Source: a virus. Taken from it: 64,000 nucleotides of DNA. Numbering within the stretch: the first letter of the stretch is position 1; each line of letters starts with the position of its first letter. The notes under the pieces are model-generated. The model saw nothing but the letters and a program-made list of their open reading frames with translations, searched no databases and was not told the origin of the DNA. The DNA is taken from the IMG/VR virus record IMGVR_UViG_3300031952_000004, positions 1-64,000 of that record. One strand, given 5' to 3'. The position numbers and the translations under genes were made by a program. This document shows, in pieces, positions 5,052-28,354 of this stretch.

Positions 5052-5216
5052 TTATTTCCCGAAAGGTTGAATATAAATAAAAATATAAAGTATAACCAAA
5101 GCTAAATTCATTCCAAAACCCAGATTCCAATCTTTTTGAATAATACCAATTATAGTTAATCCTCCAAAAGAAGTAATAGCAATAATCTGCAAAATAAATT
5201 TAATATAGTTAATCAT
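5052..5216 (-). CDS. Two-helix membrane peptide (54 aa)
   Basis: MINYIKFILQIIAITSFGGL start; two hydrophobic helices at about residues 4-25 and 33-50 separated by KDWN. AGAGGA precedes the ATG, which overlaps the end of the intein-bearing gene. The size and two-helix form resemble small holins, but evidence is insufficient. Confidence 0.6.
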   Translation of the reverse strand: MINYIKFILQIIAITSFGGLTIIGIIQKDWNLGFGMNLALVILYIFIYIQPFGK

Positions 5217-6816
5217 TCTTTTTTTCCTCTTTTATTTCGATTTTGGGTTCTTTTCTTTTAAGTTTATATTTCTTATCAATAAATTCTAAATAATCCTTCA
5301 AGCTATTAAATGCTTCTCCACCACTAACCAAAACACCTTGTAATAAACTTTTAGGTAATTCTTTTTTCAATAAATCGGTAATTAAATAAATAGGAATATT
5401 ATGTTCTAATGCTATTCCACATTCAAAAAAACTGCCACAATTATGTACGATAAATCCATTGGCTATAAAATTTCCTGTTGTTGTTACTATATCATATACG
5501 GGTAATCTATAATACTTTTCCGAAGTAACAAAATTTCTCATTTTATCAATAGTAACTGTTAATTTTTTTCTTTTATATTCTAACTGACTGGGAATTTCAG
5601 CAAAATATAATTTACTTAAACAAATACATACCTCTCTATGAGAATTAACTTTTCTATTTTTTATAAATGAATCTCGTAATTTTCTTATATTCTTAGAATA
5701 ATGTAAATCTAATTCATTACAATATTTTTCAAATATTGCTATTTGTTCTTCATGAATAATGCTCTGAGTATAACGAATAGATTCTTTTTCATAATATCCA
5801 TCGGCATCGATTGCTCCAGCAATCCAACCCTGCTTAAATGAAATAATATTATCGTGAAGATGTTTCCATTCTTTTAATATTTCGTAATCTCGAATAGAAT
5901 AAGTAGCTACTTCAAAATATATATTATTGTTTTTTTTCAATATTCTTTTTTTTGGATTAAATTTAAAATATTTTAATAAATTATATATTTTATCTATCTC
6001 AATCTCTTTATCACTTAATGCAGAAACTCGATGTGCTACTTTAGATTCCCAGAAATTACCATCGTGTTGTAAATATCCCACCAACCATCCCTTTAAAAAT
6101 AAATCATTTTGATAAGCAAATGGCAAACTAAAAACTTCATTTATATCAGAAATAGATTCATATTTACTTCCATGTTTTTTATTTGGTGATAAAAATTTGT
6201 GTTCGGGAGTTGTTATTATTTGATTGTCAAAAGAATCTTTTGTTAATAAAGTATTTTTTTTGCCTTTATAATATTTCTCCATAACAATTGATGTAATTAA
6301 TTTAGATACTCCATTTATTTTAATTATTCCCTTTATTTTATCCCCTATTTCAATTTCTCGAATTGATTTAGATGTCAAATCATCCATAAGAATTTGACTA
6401 TTTTCTTCAATACAAGGTTTATCTCCTTTACTATAAGTAAAAGTTAACCAATTAGACATAGTTACATAATCAATATCTCCTGGAATATGTACTAATTCTT
6501 CTTTTCCATCTATATATTGTTTACCTTTCCAAATCTCTTTGGCTTTTTCTTTGAATAATTCCCAATTACCAGAAGCTACCCAGCCAGACATTTTTTCTTT
6601 TATTTCTCCTGTTCTTAAACCTGTTTTTGATGTTTCTAATTTTACAGGATTAATCGGATATACATTTCTCAATAATAATTCTTTTTCTACAATTTCTCGT
6701 TTTTCTGTGCCGTCGTCTTTTTCGACACAAATTTCCATAGAACCAATAAGATATGTAATATATCTATACTGTTCTTCTATTTGTTCTGGAAGTGGATAAC
6801 CTCTATTTTCTTCCAT
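5209..6816 (-). CDS. Nucleoside 2-deoxyribosyltransferase-like protein interrupted by an intein
   Basis: The 535-residue precursor has an N-extein (1-134), an intein (135-459) and a C-extein (460-535). Joined exteins would give a 210-residue protein with YLIGSME near the N-terminus, PGDIDYVTMSNWL, and the junction motif GDKP-CGSFFECG followed by HNIPIYLITD. This is the layout of phage nucleoside 2-deoxyribosyltransferase-like proteins, where the G-S/T-x-x-E region forms the nucleobase/nucleophile site. Splicing is therefore needed to restore the active site. Next to the dNTP diphosphohydrolase gene, a role in nucleotide salvage is plausible. Residue Cys460 is the +1 nucleophile. Confidence 0.8.
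   Translation of the reverse strand: MEENRGYPLPEQIEEQYRYITYLIGSMEICVEKDDGTEKREIVEKELLLRNVYPINPVKLETSKTGLRTGEIKEKMSGWVASGNWELFKEKAKEIWKGKQYIDGKEELVHIPGDIDYVTMSNWLTFTYSKGDKPCIEENSQILMDDLTSKSIREIEIGDKIKGIIKINGVSKLITSIVMEKYYKGKKNTLLTKDSFDNQIITTPEHKFLSPNKKHGSKYESISDINEVFSLPFAYQNDLFLKGWLVGYLQHDGNFWESKVAHRVSALSDKEIEIDKIYNLLKYFKFNPKKRILKKNNNIYFEVATYSIRDYEILKEWKHLHDNIISFKQGWIAGAIDADGYYEKESIRYTQSIIHEEQIAIFEKYCNELDLHYSKNIRKLRDSFIKNRKVNSHREVCICLSKLYFAEIPSQLEYKRKKLTVTIDKMRNFVTSEKYYRLPVYDIVTTTGNFIANGFIVHNCGSFFECGIALEHNIPIYLITDLLKKELPKSLLQGVLVSGGEAFNSLKDYLEFIDKKYKLKRKEPKIEIKEEKKND
5440..6414 (-). mobile_element. Intein with LAGLIDADG homing endonuclease
   Basis: Residues 135-459 of the precursor. The first residue is Cys in CIEENSQILMDD with the block A continuation IREIEIGDKI; block B is TTPEHKFL (T-x-x-H). 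Two LAGLIDADG helices are present (GWLVGYLQHDG near 243 and GWIAGAIDADG near 330), and the end is NGFIVHN followed by Cys+1. All splice residues needed for a class 1 intein are visible. The endonuclease acidic residues (D252 and D339) are retained, so homing is probably active. Confidence 0.93.
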
Positions 6817-20190: not shown

Positions 20191-21279
<1,089 letters not shown>

Positions 21280-24233: not shown

Positions 24234-24406
24234 ATTTTTTCCCCTTTTTTATTGTTAATAAATAAAAAACATATTCCAAAAAATCTATATCCTACTGCAT
24301 TAAATTTTGTCGCTATCCATTTATGATAAAACCAATTACCTGCGGAATGTTTCAGAGAAGTAAAATATATATTTATTTCATAACATAACCACTTAATTAC
24401 TATCAT
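24221..24406 (-). CDS. Small aromatic basic protein (61 aa)
   Basis: Start MIVIKWLCYEINIYFTSLKH at 24406 from AGGGGGATAAA. Rich in Trp, Phe and Tyr; similar in character to the 46-residue protein at 23514 (both have KHxxxNW/Y-x-W/Y motifs), possibly distant paralogues. Confidence 0.55.
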   Translation of the reverse strand: MIVIKWLCYEINIYFTSLKHSAGNWFYHKWIATKFNAVGYRFFGICFLFINNKKGEKICIK

Positions 24407-24439
24407 TTTATCCCCCTTCAATATATTTTATTGCCTTTT

Positions 24440-24544
24440 TTATAATATAACATCTTTTTTATCTTTACCTGCAAAAACTCTAAAACATTTATCTATAAAT
24501 TTTATTTCTTTTTTTGTTAAAGTTTTTAGTTTTGTTTTTTTCAT
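24440..24544 (-). CDS. Small basic ORF (34 aa)
   Basis: MKKTKLKTLTKKEIKFIDKC start; lysine-rich. AAAGGGGGTAATTTAAA upstream, like other genes of this block. Confidence 0.5.
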   Translation of the reverse strand: MKKTKLKTLTKKEIKFIDKCFRVFAGKDKKDVIL

Positions 24545-24559
24545 TTTAAATTACCCCCT

Positions 24560-25150
24560 TTACAATGTTAATATCAATTTCTTTTGTTTAGTTTCGCCTC
24601 TTAAATAATCGGCTAAAAATTGTATGCCAATTTCTGCAATTATCCTATTACCACATTGTATATGTCTTTCTTCTATATCCTCATTCCTTTGACAACCGCC
24701 CTTTTGTCCATTATCTTTAGTTAATTCAAGGTATTCTATATCATCTTTTTGTGTTAAATAGGCAAATATTGTCTTTCCACTTGCCCTTAAATCTAAAAAT
24801 GGTCTCCCGGCCTCGTAAATAATTTTTCGCACTTCGTTATTGTCGGCACAAATAATAATAAAATCATACTCGGCTATCTGTTCGGCTAATTCTATTTTAA
24901 TATTTATTGCTTTATATCCTGTTCTATCTGCCAAAACTTCGGCTTTATTTCTATCTAAATCTTCTATTTCAAAATTTTGGTAAAGTAAATTTTTTTCCTC
25001 TACTTTATCATAATCTATAATATCAATAGCCATAGGATTAACTCTATTAAGCCCGATTAAATCTCTTTTTATCATTTCGGATAAACTTCGGATAAAATAA
25101 CTACCAATACCCCCACACCCTATTACTGCTATTTTTAAATTATCTTTCAT
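24560..25150 (-). CDS. ThiF/E1-like ubiquitin-activating family adenylyltransferase
   Basis: 196 residues from MKDNLKIAVIGCGGIGSYFI (ATG 25150; AAGGAG upstream). The Rossmann glycine loop G11-x-G-G-I-G16, the I-D-Y-D46-48 strand end followed by N54-L and Q58, Lys69 and the C101-A-D-N motif are those of E1/ThiF/MoeB enzymes, which adenylate the C-terminal Gly of a ubiquitin-like partner. Cys153 and Cys166 are candidates for a catalytic or metal role. At under 200 residues it is a minimal adenylation domain with no separate Cys or ubiquitin-fold domain. Two genes upstream lies a 65-residue ubiquitin-like protein ending Gly-Gly. Confidence 0.85.
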   Translation of the reverse strand: MKDNLKIAVIGCGGIGSYFIRSLSEMIKRDLIGLNRVNPMAIDIIDYDKVEEKNLLYQNFEIEDLDRNKAEVLADRTGYKAINIKIELAEQIAEYDFIIICADNNEVRKIIYEAGRPFLDLRASGKTIFAYLTQKDDIEYLELTKDNGQKGGCQRNEDIEERHIQCGNRIIAEIGIQFLADYLRGETKQKKLILTL

Positions 25151-25280
25151 TTTCAAACTCCTTTATCGCTTCTTTTAATAATCTTTCAATTTCAGGAATG
25201 GAGTTTAAATTTTGTTTACCCATTCTAAAAAGTAACCAATTTTTTGCGTATTTATATAATTTTGTTTTTTCTATTTTCAT
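25140..25280 (-). CDS. Small helical protein between Ubl and E1-like genes (46 aa)
   Basis: MKIEKTKLYKYAKNWLLFRM start, basic then acidic helix (IERLLKEAIKEFENER). Overlaps the E1-like gene by 11 bases, so it is translationally coupled to it. Function unknown; a small partner of the E1-like protein is possible. Confidence 0.6.
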   Translation of the reverse strand: MKIEKTKLYKYAKNWLLFRMGKQNLNSIPEIERLLKEAIKEFENER

Positions 25281-25331
25281 TTTTAATTCCTTTAATTTTT
25301 TATGAAGCCAAGAGTGGAGTTTAACTTTTAT

Positions 25332-25371
25332 GGTAACTCCACCCTTTAGGTCAACCTAAATCGGAGTTACC
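25332..25371 (-). other. Nested hairpin over the stop of the ubiquitin-like gene
   Basis: GGTAACTCC (25332-25340) pairs perfectly with GGAGTTACC (25363-25371); inside, TTTAGGT pairs with ACCTAAA around CA. The outer arm includes one base of the TAG stop. No U-tract follows on the minus strand, so it is more likely an mRNA-stability or expression-ratio element than a terminator. Confidence 0.65.
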
Positions 25372-25568
25372 TAACCACCTATCAAACTATCCGTTATTAC
25401 GATTTCTCTCGGCAATTCGGTAATTCCGTCAAGCGTAACTTCATTGACGAATTTTCCGTCTGCAAAAACAAACTTGTCCTTTAACTCCACTTTTGACTTT
25501 AACTCATCAATCGTGGCTACCTCTAATCTTGTATCCCCTGTTTCGTCTAATACGATTACCTTAATCAT
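25371..25568 (-). CDS. Ubiquitin-like protein with C-terminal Gly-Gly
   Basis: 65 residues beginning MIKVIVLDETGDTRLEVATI. The first part follows the ubiquitin pattern: strand, T-G-x-T hairpin, L-E-V strand, then a DELKSKV helix, and the protein ends in LIGG, placing Gly-Gly at the very C-terminus as required for E1 adenylation. A beta-grasp fold is therefore likely. It has its own promoter (25603-25608) and a GGGGGTGTAAAA site, and lies upstream of the ThiF/E1-like gene. GC content is visibly higher than in neighbours. Sulphur-carrier (ThiS/MoaD-like) and conjugated-modifier roles are both possible. Confidence 0.7.
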   Translation of the reverse strand: MIKVIVLDETGDTRLEVATIDELKSKVELKDKFVFADGKFVNEVTLDGITELPREIVITDSLIGG

Positions 25569-25602
25569 TTTTACACCCCCTCTCTTTTACCTCTCTACTA
25601 TA

Positions 25603-25635
25603 AGTATAACACACCTTTTGCTTTCCCGGAAGTCC
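25603..25635 (-). promoter_or_regulatory. Promoter of the ubiquitin-like/E1 operon
   Basis: Minus strand TGTTATACT (extended -10; TATACT at 25603-25608), 35 bases before the ATG. The upstream 27 bases, starting GGACTTCCGGGAAAGCAAAA, are matched at 29 of 33 positions overall by the element at 27788-27820. The -35 region is not TTGACA; the shared CCGG word sits there instead. Confidence 0.65.
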
Positions 25636-25636
25636 T

Positions 25637-25801
25637 TTACTCATCTAACTCGCCCCCGGCTAAAAAGAATAACTGCCTATATGCAATCCTCTCTTGATAA
25701 TTCCCTAACTTCTCAATGTTCAACCATATTGCCCTTGCCCCATACTCGCTTATCTTTTCCGTCATCTCATCAATACTGACAAACCTTTTTCCGTTTTCCA
25801 T
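25637..25801 (-). CDS. Small helical protein upstream of Ubl (54 aa)
   Basis: MENGKRFVSIDEMTEKISEY start, mostly helix, ends FLAGGELDE. AAAAGGGGGTAAAA upstream. GC-rich compared with surroundings, like the ubiquitin-like gene. Its stop lies just before the shared promoter element, so it belongs to the upstream transcription unit. Confidence 0.6.
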   Translation of the reverse strand: MENGKRFVSIDEMTEKISEYGARAIWLNIEKLGNYQERIAYRQLFFLAGGELDE

Positions 25802-25813
25802 TTTTACCCCCTT

Positions 25814-27484
25814 TTAATGTATTGTACTAATTTCTTCTCGGAGATTTCCGTCGTTCATCATAACCATACAAAATTGAAGTAATTTATCGTATTTGCAAAG
25901 ATAACTTCCCTCTTTTGTCTTTTCGTTAATACAAATATAATCATTTCCCGGGAAAGTCCACACACCCACGTCATTATCATTTTTACGTTTTACAATATAG
26001 TTTTTTAATTTTCCCTTTACCACATAACCACCCTCTCTTATAAATACTCTTGTCTTATTTTTCTCTAAAAATTCATTAAATAACTGTTCGGCTCTCGCCT
26101 CTGCTAATCGTCTTTTTTCCACAAATCCCTTTATCTTATCAATTAAAATGTCCTCTAATTCTGCCCCGGCCTGTAAAGTATCACAAATACTACCAATTGC
26201 AGTTAAACCACCCCCACTTAAATATTTAAAACTATCTTTTACAGATTTATAATCTCTTTTTACCCTAAAATTATCTATACTAATTTCCCAATGGTCTTTA
26301 TCCTCTGCTTTTATGTTAAAATGTATAGGTATAGTCGTTCCGTCTAATCTTATTTCTATGGTCTTTCCGGATAATAATTCTAATTGCGTTCCGCTAAATA
26401 ATCTAATTTTCTCTAAATAATTTTCTAAATTTTGTATTCTTTCTCTTAAAACAGTTTCGTCTATGTTGTTATAATATCCACCGCCGATAAACTCAATGGC
26501 TTTATTCATTTTTTGTATCGGCATTTTTACGTCATTTATTTTAAATCTTAATTTACCTTTATCATTATGATTATTTTCTATTTTAATCTCTTTTAAAAAA
26601 GTTTCTACTTTCGTTTCTTTATCATAAGAATAAATCTTAAAATTCAACCATTTTTTATTACAGTTTTCTGTTAATTTCTTATCTATCGGGGTTTCGTATT
26701 TTCCTACTCTATAAACTCCCTCTAATTTCTGTAAAAAACTTCTATAATCTAACTGAATAAATTTATTATTATAGTTATCTTCACTTACTAAATCATCTTT
26801 ATCAAAAAGTTTTACAACCTTATCTTTAAATTCTATCTTTAATCCTTTATTTTTATCAATAAAATAATTATCCTTAATTATTGTATCATTATCCTCTAAT
26901 AAAGTCATTTTATCATATTGATTAACTAATGCTTTAAATCTTTCTCGTTCCTGTATATCTTTTAGTTCCTCTGTTGTCTTTTCTTTATTCTCTAATTCTT
27001 TTCCCTCTACTTCTATCTCGGCTAATCTATTTTTAATTTTATCTAAATCCTCATTAAAAATTAAATAAATTTCTAACAAATCTATCTTGCCTAAAAGTTT
27101 AAAACTTAAATTTTCTTTATCCTCGTATCGTTCAAAATTTTTAATCTGTTTATCGGTTATAAGCATATCGTTATAAATATAAGATACTAAATTGTTATTC
27201 CTATAATAAGTCCTACCACCTTTTATACTAAACACCCGGCCAGTATCAAGATAATTATAAATTCCCTCGTCGCTTGATATAAAATACAAATAATTATCTA
27301 AATAAAATACTCTTGTGTTTCCGTCAAATTGAAATACATTTAATTTATGGCTATCCTCTGTATCGGGTATTTGCCTATTCTCAAAAAATCCCGGTTCTAA
27401 AATCTGTTTACCAAATTCTACCTTTTGCCATATTCTTAAATAAGTTTCGTCATTTTGTTTTTCTATATGGTATCGTTTAAACAT
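25814..27484 (-). CDS. Large hypothetical protein (556 aa)
   Basis: The largest early protein. Residues about 1-150 are beta-rich (repeated strand/turn units such as VFYLDNYLYFISSDEGIYNY); 150-190 is a charged coiled coil (IKNRLAEIEVEGKELENKEK); 200-440 alternates strands and helices; the C-terminal 80 residues (YVVKGKLKNYIVKRKNDNDV, then YICINE and DKLLQFCMVMMND) resemble a C-terminal module that I have seen in other phage hypothetical proteins. No metalloprotease or ATPase motif is visible. It starts within the end of the 97-residue gene and lies upstream of the ubiquitin-like operon, so a functional link is possible but unproven. Confidence 0.75.
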   Translation of the reverse strand: MFKRYHIEKQNDETYLRIWQKVEFGKQILEPGFFENRQIPDTEDSHKLNVFQFDGNTRVFYLDNYLYFISSDEGIYNYLDTGRVFSIKGGRTYYRNNNLVSYIYNDMLITDKQIKNFERYEDKENLSFKLLGKIDLLEIYLIFNEDLDKIKNRLAEIEVEGKELENKEKTTEELKDIQERERFKALVNQYDKMTLLEDNDTIIKDNYFIDKNKGLKIEFKDKVVKLFDKDDLVSEDNYNNKFIQLDYRSFLQKLEGVYRVGKYETPIDKKLTENCNKKWLNFKIYSYDKETKVETFLKEIKIENNHNDKGKLRFKINDVKMPIQKMNKAIEFIGGGYYNNIDETVLRERIQNLENYLEKIRLFSGTQLELLSGKTIEIRLDGTTIPIHFNIKAEDKDHWEISIDNFRVKRDYKSVKDSFKYLSGGGLTAIGSICDTLQAGAELEDILIDKIKGFVEKRRLAEARAEQLFNEFLEKNKTRVFIREGGYVVKGKLKNYIVKRKNDNDVGVWTFPGNDYICINEKTKEGSYLCKYDKLLQFCMVMMNDGNLREEISTIH

Positions 27485-27770
27485 TTTTTATCTCTCTCTT
27501 TCGTTTAATTATATCTATATGTTTTTGAAGTTCTACCTCGCTAAACTTATTAAGATTAACAAGGTCTTTCGGAAAGTCCGGTTCTAATACTAATATCTCG
27601 GCTATTAGTTTTTCCTTACCCGGTTCTATTGTAGTAACTTCGGCTTTTTGCTTTTTAAGGTCTTTAATTTTATGCTCTAAATCTAACCTCTCTACACTTC
27701 CCGGCCTACATTGAAGTTTAAGTTTTCTTAACCGCCTTATCTCTGCTTTAATTTCTTTAGGTTCTGTCAT
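27477..27770 (-). CDS. Basic helical protein (97 aa)
   Basis: MTEPKEIKAEIRRLRKLKLQ start, an N-terminal basic helical hairpin with RPGSVERLDLEHKIKDLKKQ, then a linker and a second helix. The N-terminal half resembles a small conserved phage motif (E...LR..R...RPGS.ER..L..KI..LK). Ends overlapping the large gene by 8 bases; driven by the promoter at 27788. Confidence 0.65.
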   Translation of the reverse strand: MTEPKEIKAEIRRLRKLKLQCRPGSVERLDLEHKIKDLKKQKAEVTTIEPGKEKLIAEILVLEPDFPKDLVNLNKFSEVELQKHIDIIKRKREIKNV

Positions 27771-27787
27771 TTTTGCCTTTCATTATA

Positions 27788-27820
27788 AGTATAACATATC
27801 TTTTGCTTTTCCGGTAGTCC
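27788..27820 (-). promoter_or_regulatory. Promoter element matching 25603-25635
   Basis: Minus strand GGACTACCGGAAAAGCAAAA, then TGTTATACT; TATACT at 27788-27793 is only 18 bases from the ATG, giving a very short leader. Same length and 29/33 identity with the Ubl promoter element. Confidence 0.6.
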
Positions 27821-27997
27821 TTATTTACAATGCTCGGTTATAATTGCCACTTCGTCTTTATGTTCCCGGCCATAGCAACCACAATTTATTTCTGCTTTGT
27901 GTCCGCAATTCTGATATTTTCCGTCTTTTATCCAAACTTGTTTTTCATAATCATAACTTAACTTTGCTTTATCTTTACTATAATAATTCCGGCTCAT
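27821..27997 (-). CDS. Small cysteine/histidine protein (58 aa)
   Basis: Start MSRNYYSKDKAKLSYDYEKQ at 27997 from AAGGGGGTGTAAAA. The CGHKAEINCGCYGREHKDE stretch is a recurring motif of a small phage family (YQNCGHxAxxNCGCYGRxH) and probably binds zinc. Function unknown. Confidence 0.7.
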   Translation of the reverse strand: MSRNYYSKDKAKLSYDYEKQVWIKDGKYQNCGHKAEINCGCYGREHKDEVAIITEHCK

Positions 27998-27998
27998 T

Positions 27999-28319
27999 TT
28001 ACACCCCCTTATTTTCATATCCTTTTTCACCCCACAAGGTATCACCTCTATCATTTTTCAATGCTTTAAGATAAACTTTTTTGTAAATCGGCACTAATCC
28101 AAACCCGGTCAATAAATCTTTTTCTATTCGCTTAAAATTTTCATTATGTCCGTATGTTTTTGTAGTATCATAATTGATAGAATGTCCTAATTCGTGCAAA
28201 ACATAAGCCCTAAAATATTCTATACCCTCTAAATAAGCCCAAATAGGTATGCTAATTTTCCGGTTATCATAATAAGCAAATCCTCTTTGAATATCTTTTA
28301 CTCTAATTTTTATCGGCTC
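27999..28319 (-). CDS. HExxH zinc metallopeptidase-like protein, start out of frame
   Basis: The open frame of 106 codons (from GAG at 28319) reads KIRVKDIQRGFAYYDNRKIS, then YVLHELGHSINYD with the HELGH zinc motif, and continues to WGEKGYENKGV. This matches a phage family of small SprT-like peptidases that begin M-R-x-P-I-K-I. The only ATG with a ribosome site (28323, after GCGAGGTATAAAA) is in another frame and stops after six codons. Restoring one AG in the AGAG run after it would join the two. So either a frameshifted gene, a non-ATG start, or a sequence error. Confidence 0.65.
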   Translation of the reverse strand, partial: EPIKIRVKDIQRGFAYYDNRKISIPIWAYLEGIEYFRAYVLHELGHSINYDTTKTYGHNENFKRIEKDLLTGFGLVPIYKKVYLKALKNDRGDTLWGEKGYENKGV

Positions 28320-28354
28320 TCATTTTTATACCTCGCTTTTTAAATCCTAACTAA

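Follow-up and report, generated by a model that had tools for sequence, protein, structure and literature searches.

Gene content of the cassette

The window, a stretch of 64,000 nucleotides that forms part of a virus record of 109,585 bases, carries on its minus strand a gene for a ubiquitin-like protein (Ubl), a gene for its predicted activating enzyme (E1) and several associated reading frames. In the direction of transcription these are a 97-aa ORF (27477-27770), the gene of a 556-aa protein (25814-27484), a 54-aa ORF (25637-25801), the 65-codon Ubl gene (25371-25568), a 46-aa ORF (25140-25280) that overlaps the start of the next gene, and the gene of a minimal, 196-aa adenylating enzyme of the E1/ThiF type (24560-25150), which starts at an ATG with a TTG alternative two codons upstream. 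The Ubl reads MIKVIVLDETGDTRLEVATI...SLIGG, in agreement with the LIGG ending given for it in the preliminary description, and stops at its Gly-Gly pair (codons 25374-25379) with no tail after it.

The closest virus first found (L001/L007) encodes an E1 64% identical to that of the window; a second close virus (L008, E1 60% identical) was found with a two-sequence profile, which also retrieved ~35 more distant minimal E1s of 183–224 aa. Both close relatives have the gene order of the window (97 aa, or 96 aa in L008, then 552/553 aa, ~50 aa, Ubl and E1), with the counterpart of the 556-aa protein in the same place relative to Ubl and E1. The 54-aa ORF, kept in this clade only, corresponds to 53 aa in L007 and 49 aa in L008, with 53–68% amino acid identity. 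Across the three viruses of this clade, every cassette gene has a dN/dS far below 1, and purifying selection on the Ubl is strong (dN 0.10–0.18, dS above 1).

Two details of the preliminary description did not hold up equally well. The 46-aa ORF does exist, but as a component it is doubtful, being absent from both close relatives, where Ubl and E1 are separated by a gap of 88–92 bp; it is probably not part of the Ubl-E1 system. A promoter of its own had also been assigned to the unit. We dropped this proposal, as the 20 sigma-70-like sites in 24400-27900 are not above the shuffle expectation (16.6±4.1), and in the same scanned interval no such site lies just upstream of the Ubl on the minus strand.

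The 65-aa protein is predicted to have a ubiquitin-type fold

By sequence, the Ubl has no family match in Pfam, PHROGs, NCBIfam, PADLOC or PDB, and its family alignment has none in PDB and Pfam either. An AlphaFold2 (AF2) model built on a 24-sequence family alignment (pLDDT 77, pTM 0.59) places strands at residues 2–8, 11–17, 32–36, 39–41 and 55–60 and helices at 20–26 and 43–46, giving the order strand-strand-helix-strand-strand-short helix-strand, as in ubiquitin. Nearly all of the 50 matches listed by Foldseek against the PDB are ubiquitin or Ubl proteins, among them ubiquitin itself, ISG15, FAT10 and Hub1 (prob up to 0.99, TM ~0.5, with moderate E-values, the best being 2.4e-3). A beta-grasp fold of the ubiquitin type, as proposed from the sequence, is thus what the model predicts, at moderate model confidence.

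Four columns of the family are invariant over its 24 sequences (G11, T13, G64 and G65). While the Gly-Gly pair is kept in 24/24, what follows it varies in number (0–10 residues) and kind, with tails such as SL, NQ, GY or SCTIDDDDY in relatives. The protein ends exactly at the pair in the window, in L007 and L008 (64 and 65 aa, both ending LIGG), and in L040, L162 and L172. Such an ending is beyond chance, because GG ends just 3 of the 1040 ORFs of 40–110 aa that lie on the same strand in related loci; three Ubl homologues (L007, L008 and L040) end in exactly these two residues. An invariant Gly-Gly before a variable tail is the signature expected of a modifier that is processed by trimming.

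A minimal E1 with an invariant cysteine

The window's enzyme had been described as a minimal ThiF/E1-like protein with an intact glycine loop and a C-A-D-N motif, and this is borne out by the motifs GCGGIG and CADN and by a match to Pfam ThiF (E = 3.7e-12). The residues of ThiF/E1 adenylation (GxGGxG, D-x-D, N, K and D(N)) are present. Its nearest NCBIfam model is PRTRC_ThiF (6.9e-15), matched with 55 bits, below the cut-off of 144.75; scores against the ThiF and MoeB equivalogs (36 and 14 bits) also fall below the respective cut-offs of 159 and 266, and the NCBIfam model of SAMP-activating E1s scores 13 bits. In a search of the PDB with the E1 profile, NEDD8 E1, MccB and UBA5 came out on top, with SUMO E1, Cap2, MoeB and ThiF below them.

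Over 18 minimal E1s, and excepting the loop of L007, residues G11, G14-G16, D46, D48, E51-N54, K69, D103 and N104 are invariant, as are R108, D120-R122 (DLR motif), C153 and Q154. Cysteine 153 (codon 24692-24694) is found in 40/40 aligned E1s, including those of the PRTRC type with SCA[DE], and since it is common to all of them we regard it as the best candidate for a thioester cysteine. The L007 enzyme lacks one of the loop glycines (GLNGIG) and carries AVDN in place of CxDN. Throughout the minimal-E1 clade, the arginine of the NLxRQ motif (MoeB/ThiF type) is replaced by tyrosine, while the PRTRC-type phage E1s have the ordinary arginine. This substitution, together with the glycine loss in L007, might mean that catalysis differs or is reduced.

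In a maximum-likelihood tree, the E1 of the window groups with those of L007 and L008 (support 100/97). This trio next joins the Aenigmatarchaeota and Methanoperedens-type E1s (99/94), and the resulting group is sister to the archaeal-virus E1s. The minimal E1s as a whole (93/89) form a clade separate from the PRTRC-type E1s. Directly after the minimal E1, the Aenigmatarchaeota and Methanoperedens loci encode a 79- or 166-aa protein ending SATxTxKxKGG (L081:10612-10851, L082:10676-11176 and L083:10677-11177). Homology of these GG-ended proteins to the Ubl was not detected, and they are possibly a different modifier.

Ubl and E1 occur together in related viruses

Thirty of 38 minimal-E1 loci contain a Ubl homologue recognised by HMM. 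The other eight span just 0.3–4.8 kb upstream of the E1 and, with Ubl genes lying up to 6.1 kb upstream, hold too little DNA to count as counter-examples. Among E1-fetched IMG/VR loci with enough upstream DNA the Ubl is therefore present in 30/30. The reverse search with the Ubl only yielded 33 further loci (28 on contigs new to the analysis, near-identical contigs being left in), 31 of which have an E1; in the two without it, less than 4 kb of sequence follows the Ubl. The co-occurrence of the two genes in related phages, which the proposed pairing implies, is thus seen from both directions.

A JAMM-motif protein (HTHPFGxA[YF][FL]S[GS]xD) of 169–206 aa, matched weakly by Pfam Prok-JAB, is encoded 0.5–2.6 kb downstream of the E1 in 34/38 minimal-E1 loci, which include every archaeal-type locus that extends far enough downstream (34/34). 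It is missing from four loci, two of them from the window's close relatives and two cut off shortly after the E1. Neither Prok-JAB nor the JAMM motif was found in the whole records of the window (G000) and of L007 and L008 (G001, G002); H-x-H matches in G001 and G002 were rejected on inspection as metallophosphoesterases. Prok-E2_B was likewise not found in the window's record, in a search with a weak control, and a UQ_con search for a canonical E2 had no positive control and is uninformative. The earlier statement that the system lacks a visible E2 or JAB agrees with these searches of the 109.6-kb record. The archaeal-virus relatives combine a Ubl, a single E1 and a JAMM protein with no E2, and the window's clade has the same set without the JAMM protein. 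Tail-less Ubls and JAB absence do not always coincide, as in L040, L162 and L172 the Ubl ends at Gly-Gly and yet a JAB is present.

The 556-aa protein as a third partner

The preliminary description envisaged a system of two or three components. A third partner is indeed suggested by the data, but it is the 556-aa protein, with the 54-aa gene beside it, and not the product of the 46-aa ORF. In the archaeal-virus loci, a 361–460-aa protein encoded between Ubl and E1 is homologous to the C-terminal region of the 556-aa protein (hhalign P 8e-5); the same region is shared by a ~700-aa protein whose gene, in archaeal elements, immediately precedes the E1. Over 21 rows of the family alignment, G491, C518, I519 and D533 are invariant, with C518 (codon 25931-25933) and D533 lying near the C-terminus.

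The AF2 model of this protein is poor (pLDDT 57.7). Foldseek found no match to the PDB under 0.001, the weak and non-significant matches being to RWD-type kinetochore proteins (E 0.04, prob 0.41) and acetyltransferases. A W-T-F-P..N...C-I motif raised the idea that the protein is an E2, which was abandoned when hhalign against phage E2s gave no match. As judged from its invariant cysteine and its linkage to the Ubl and E1 genes, the protein could be a ligase, although this is a guess.

Viruses that carry the module

In the archaeal-type relatives (L009 to L042, L056 and L059) a TFIIB-like gene adjoins the E1; in the one locus tested it matches the Pfam models Zn_Ribbon_TF (1.5e-7) and TFIIB (1e-5). 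These look like viruses of marine archaea, and most relatives can be labelled TFIIB-encoding, magrovirus-like archaeal virus contigs, a name based on TFIIB, on contig size and on the genes nearby. One copy, found in an ‘Altibacter’ MAG, probably comes from a virus binned with it. The record of the window encodes a sigma-70-like protein (weak match), RuvB, ClpP and peptide deformylase, and its virus, like the three-virus clade to which it belongs, is probably a bacterial virus.

Several other features of this virus deserve mention. Genes for proteolysis and N-terminal processing are unusually many at L068:12695-17347 (-), where ClpP-like proteins, an MFS/BT1-type transporter, a site-2-protease-like protein and the peptide deformylase are encoded. 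A gene for a SprT-like metalloprotease with an HELGH motif (28002-28340, minus strand) is intact in L001 (6861-7253, 131 aa), but in the window its N-terminal portion is either absent or in another frame. Intein/LAGLIDADG insertions occur in a protein of the window (5209-6816, minus strand) and in the family B DNA polymerase (L069:9655-12939 (-)), with Pfam Intein_splicing matches of 2.7e-9 and 2.3e-10, respectively. A 362-aa protein (20191-21279, minus strand) combines a signal-like start with a long collagen-like Gly-X-Y stretch.

Proposed mechanism and alternative readings

We suggest that the cassette is a putative virus-encoded Ubl-conjugation module that works without an E2, a reading to which we assign a probability of roughly 60%. 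The fold of the Ubl, the intact E1 residues, the linkage of the two genes, the selection acting on them and the linkage to a JAMM protein are established by computation, and the recurrence of the gene pair in dozens of relatives suggests that these viruses tag proteins of the infected cell with a ubiquitin-like label. In such a pathway, the E1 would bind the 65-aa Ubl and adenylate its C-terminal Gly65 at the expense of ATP, and the activated Ubl would then pass into a thioester with Cys153 of the E1, a step that the invariance of this cysteine brings to mind. From there it could end up on lysines of host or viral proteins, with transfer being direct, as in archaeal SAMPs, or running via the 556-aa protein and its Cys518. 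In most relatives the Ubl would first appear as a precursor whose Gly-Gly is followed by a variable tail, and the JAMM protease encoded nearby would trim this tail and also reverse the tagging; in the window's clade the mature Ubl would be made directly, the protease having been lost or never present.

The preliminary description left two functions side by side, tagging of proteins and supply of sulphur, of which we favour the former because no rhodanese was found in the 11 records searched. A sulphur-carrier pair of the ThiS/ThiF, MoaD/MoeB or TtuB/Urm1-like kind, in which a thiocarboxylated Ubl would give sulphur to cofactor, tRNA or nucleotide modification, is in keeping with the homology of ThiF and MoeB to the E1 and with two adjacent PAPS-reductase-like ATP-pyrophosphatase genes, located at L069:6943-8597 (-) in the window's record and also found in G001. 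However, the rhodanese expected of a sulphur relay was found in none of 11 records (control positive in 13 of 14), and the PAPS-reductase-like genes, present in only 2 of 11 records, are absent from G002 and from all archaeal-type records. Thiamine or Moco genes were not noticed near the cassette, relatives have a JAMM protease and tailed precursors, and JAB/E1 pairings have been predicted to act unlike classical ThiF or MoeB (PMC1779556). We therefore consider sulphur supply unlikely.

Antiphage defence is one role of bacterial Ubl and E1 systems (PMC10097602), and a viral copy could serve as a decoy that intercepts or poisons a host pathway of the Bil, CBASS Cap2 or SAMP type. The E1-E2 (Cap2-like) models of PADLOC do match the E1, albeit weakly and through the E1 part of the profile only. 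Family-wide retention of the E1 catalytic residues and strong purifying selection on the Ubl speak against a decoy, and a conserved gene order with 100% mutual linkage, where enough DNA is available, fits a core function better than a variable anti-defence gene, which makes this explanation quite improbable.

MccB is among the nearest solved structures, and the E1 might accordingly be read as an adenylyltransferase acting on a peptide or other substrate, with the 65-aa protein as a beta-grasp adaptor in place of a transferable modifier; as this leaves the invariant Gly-Gly with its variable tails and the JAMM partner unexplained, we hold it to be very improbable. Scarcely credible is a degenerate E1 in the window's clade that forms only a non-covalent scaffold with the Ubl, for although L007 shows GLNGIG for GxGGIG and AVDN for CxDN and the clade is without JAB, the window and L008 retain GxGGIG, K69, D103, N104 and C153, and the Gly-Gly of the Ubl is kept in all three.

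Returning to Ubl conjugation, a broader version of this reading would make it a core process of a widespread archaeal-virus lineage and its bacterial-virus relatives, in which the ligase would be an enzyme of a novel type, the co-inherited 360–720-aa protein with its invariant Cys-Ile...Asp close to the C-terminus replacing E2 and E3, giving a minimal three-gene system outside all Ubl pathways known so far. This extension seems doubtful to us. Prokaryotic Ubl systems have mostly been studied as cellular housekeeping or antiviral defence, and here it is the viruses that own both modifier and activating enzyme. Dozens of marine-type virus contigs offer a natural contrast between a tailed precursor with a protease and a tail-less modifier without one, and with only two or three small proteins involved, E2-less tagging, its role and the minimal machinery for it become directly testable with purified proteins.

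Comparison with known systems

We found no report of this Ubl-E1 module in the literature searched, and an earlier mention of E1 or JAB genes in the magrovirus literature is possible. Virus-borne Ubl sets as such are already known, namely the lambda tail assembly protein I (TAPI) with its JAB (PMC1779556) and the PRTRC-type sets. In the former, a virus-encoded Ubl-like domain with a conserved Gly is linked to the JAB of TAPK (PMC1779556), but TAPI is a tail-assembly protein without an E1, whereas the pair in the window lies outside tail genes and has its own E1.

The PRTRC-type sets (Ubl, Prok-E2, JAB and ThiF, as in Salmonella phage Arash) resemble the module described here in that Ubl and E1 are virus-borne, with a JAB as in the archaeal relatives. 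They differ in having an E2, of which none was found here (a PRTRC-type E2 profile gave no match to the linked 556-aa family), in a Ubl that ends in GTKG and not in LIGG/AIVGG, and in an E1 of ~350 aa with NLxRQ, DxGN and SCA[DE], compared with ~190 aa, NLxYQ, DLRxxG and SCQ here. In phage Arash itself, a 66-aa Ubl-like ORF ending TGTKG (L003:107-307) overlaps the annotated first CDS (102-320) in another frame and completes, together with gp246-248, a full Ubl-E2-JAB-E1 set labelled as hypothetical or structural. Vibrio phage D69 encodes a 263-aa protein (L004:1385-2176) of three Ubl-like repeats, each ending near TGTKG, next to JAB, E2-like and E1 fragments. Among Crassvirales, the phages cr106_1, PhiCrAssBcn2 and DAC15 (L138, L139 and L141) have a ThiF/E1-like gene whose annotation reads thiamine biosynthesis protein; the gene preceding it in cr106_1 is noted to have a metalloprotease domain. 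Crassvirales with this gene include phages cultured on Bacteroides, and the locus may represent a related Ubl system amenable to genetics.

The Bil/Bub systems contain E2 domains and have a defensive role in the cell. Together with type II CBASS Cap2 they share with the module described here the conjugation of a Ubl or Ubl-like protein with an E1 and a JAB, and the Cap2 and BubCD E1s are distant homologues of the window's enzyme. Cap2 systems likewise have an E2 domain and a role in cellular defence (PMC10097602); Bil and Cap2 are thus cellular, while the module here is virus-encoded with no E2 found. In Caldiarchaeum subterraneum, an operon encodes pro-ubiquitin, E1, E2, a RING protein and Rpn11/JAMM, the last of which cuts the 9-residue tail of pro-ubiquitin before E1 activation (PMC5654768). 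The tailed precursor is as in the archaeal-virus relatives; the E2, the RING E3 and the cellular genome set it apart.

The SAMP system operates with one E1 and no dedicated E2. It is a cellular, housekeeping system, and its E1 is larger and MoeB-like. With GG-ended Ubls and a JAMM protease, the SAMP-UbaA-HvJAMM1 set of Haloferax (PMC4443979) is nevertheless the closest working analogue of the archaeal-virus version. The window's module falls outside the PRTRC, Bil/Cap2 and sulphur-carrier groups, having an E1 clade, a Ubl family and a partner protein of its own, and by analogy it would act most like SAMP.
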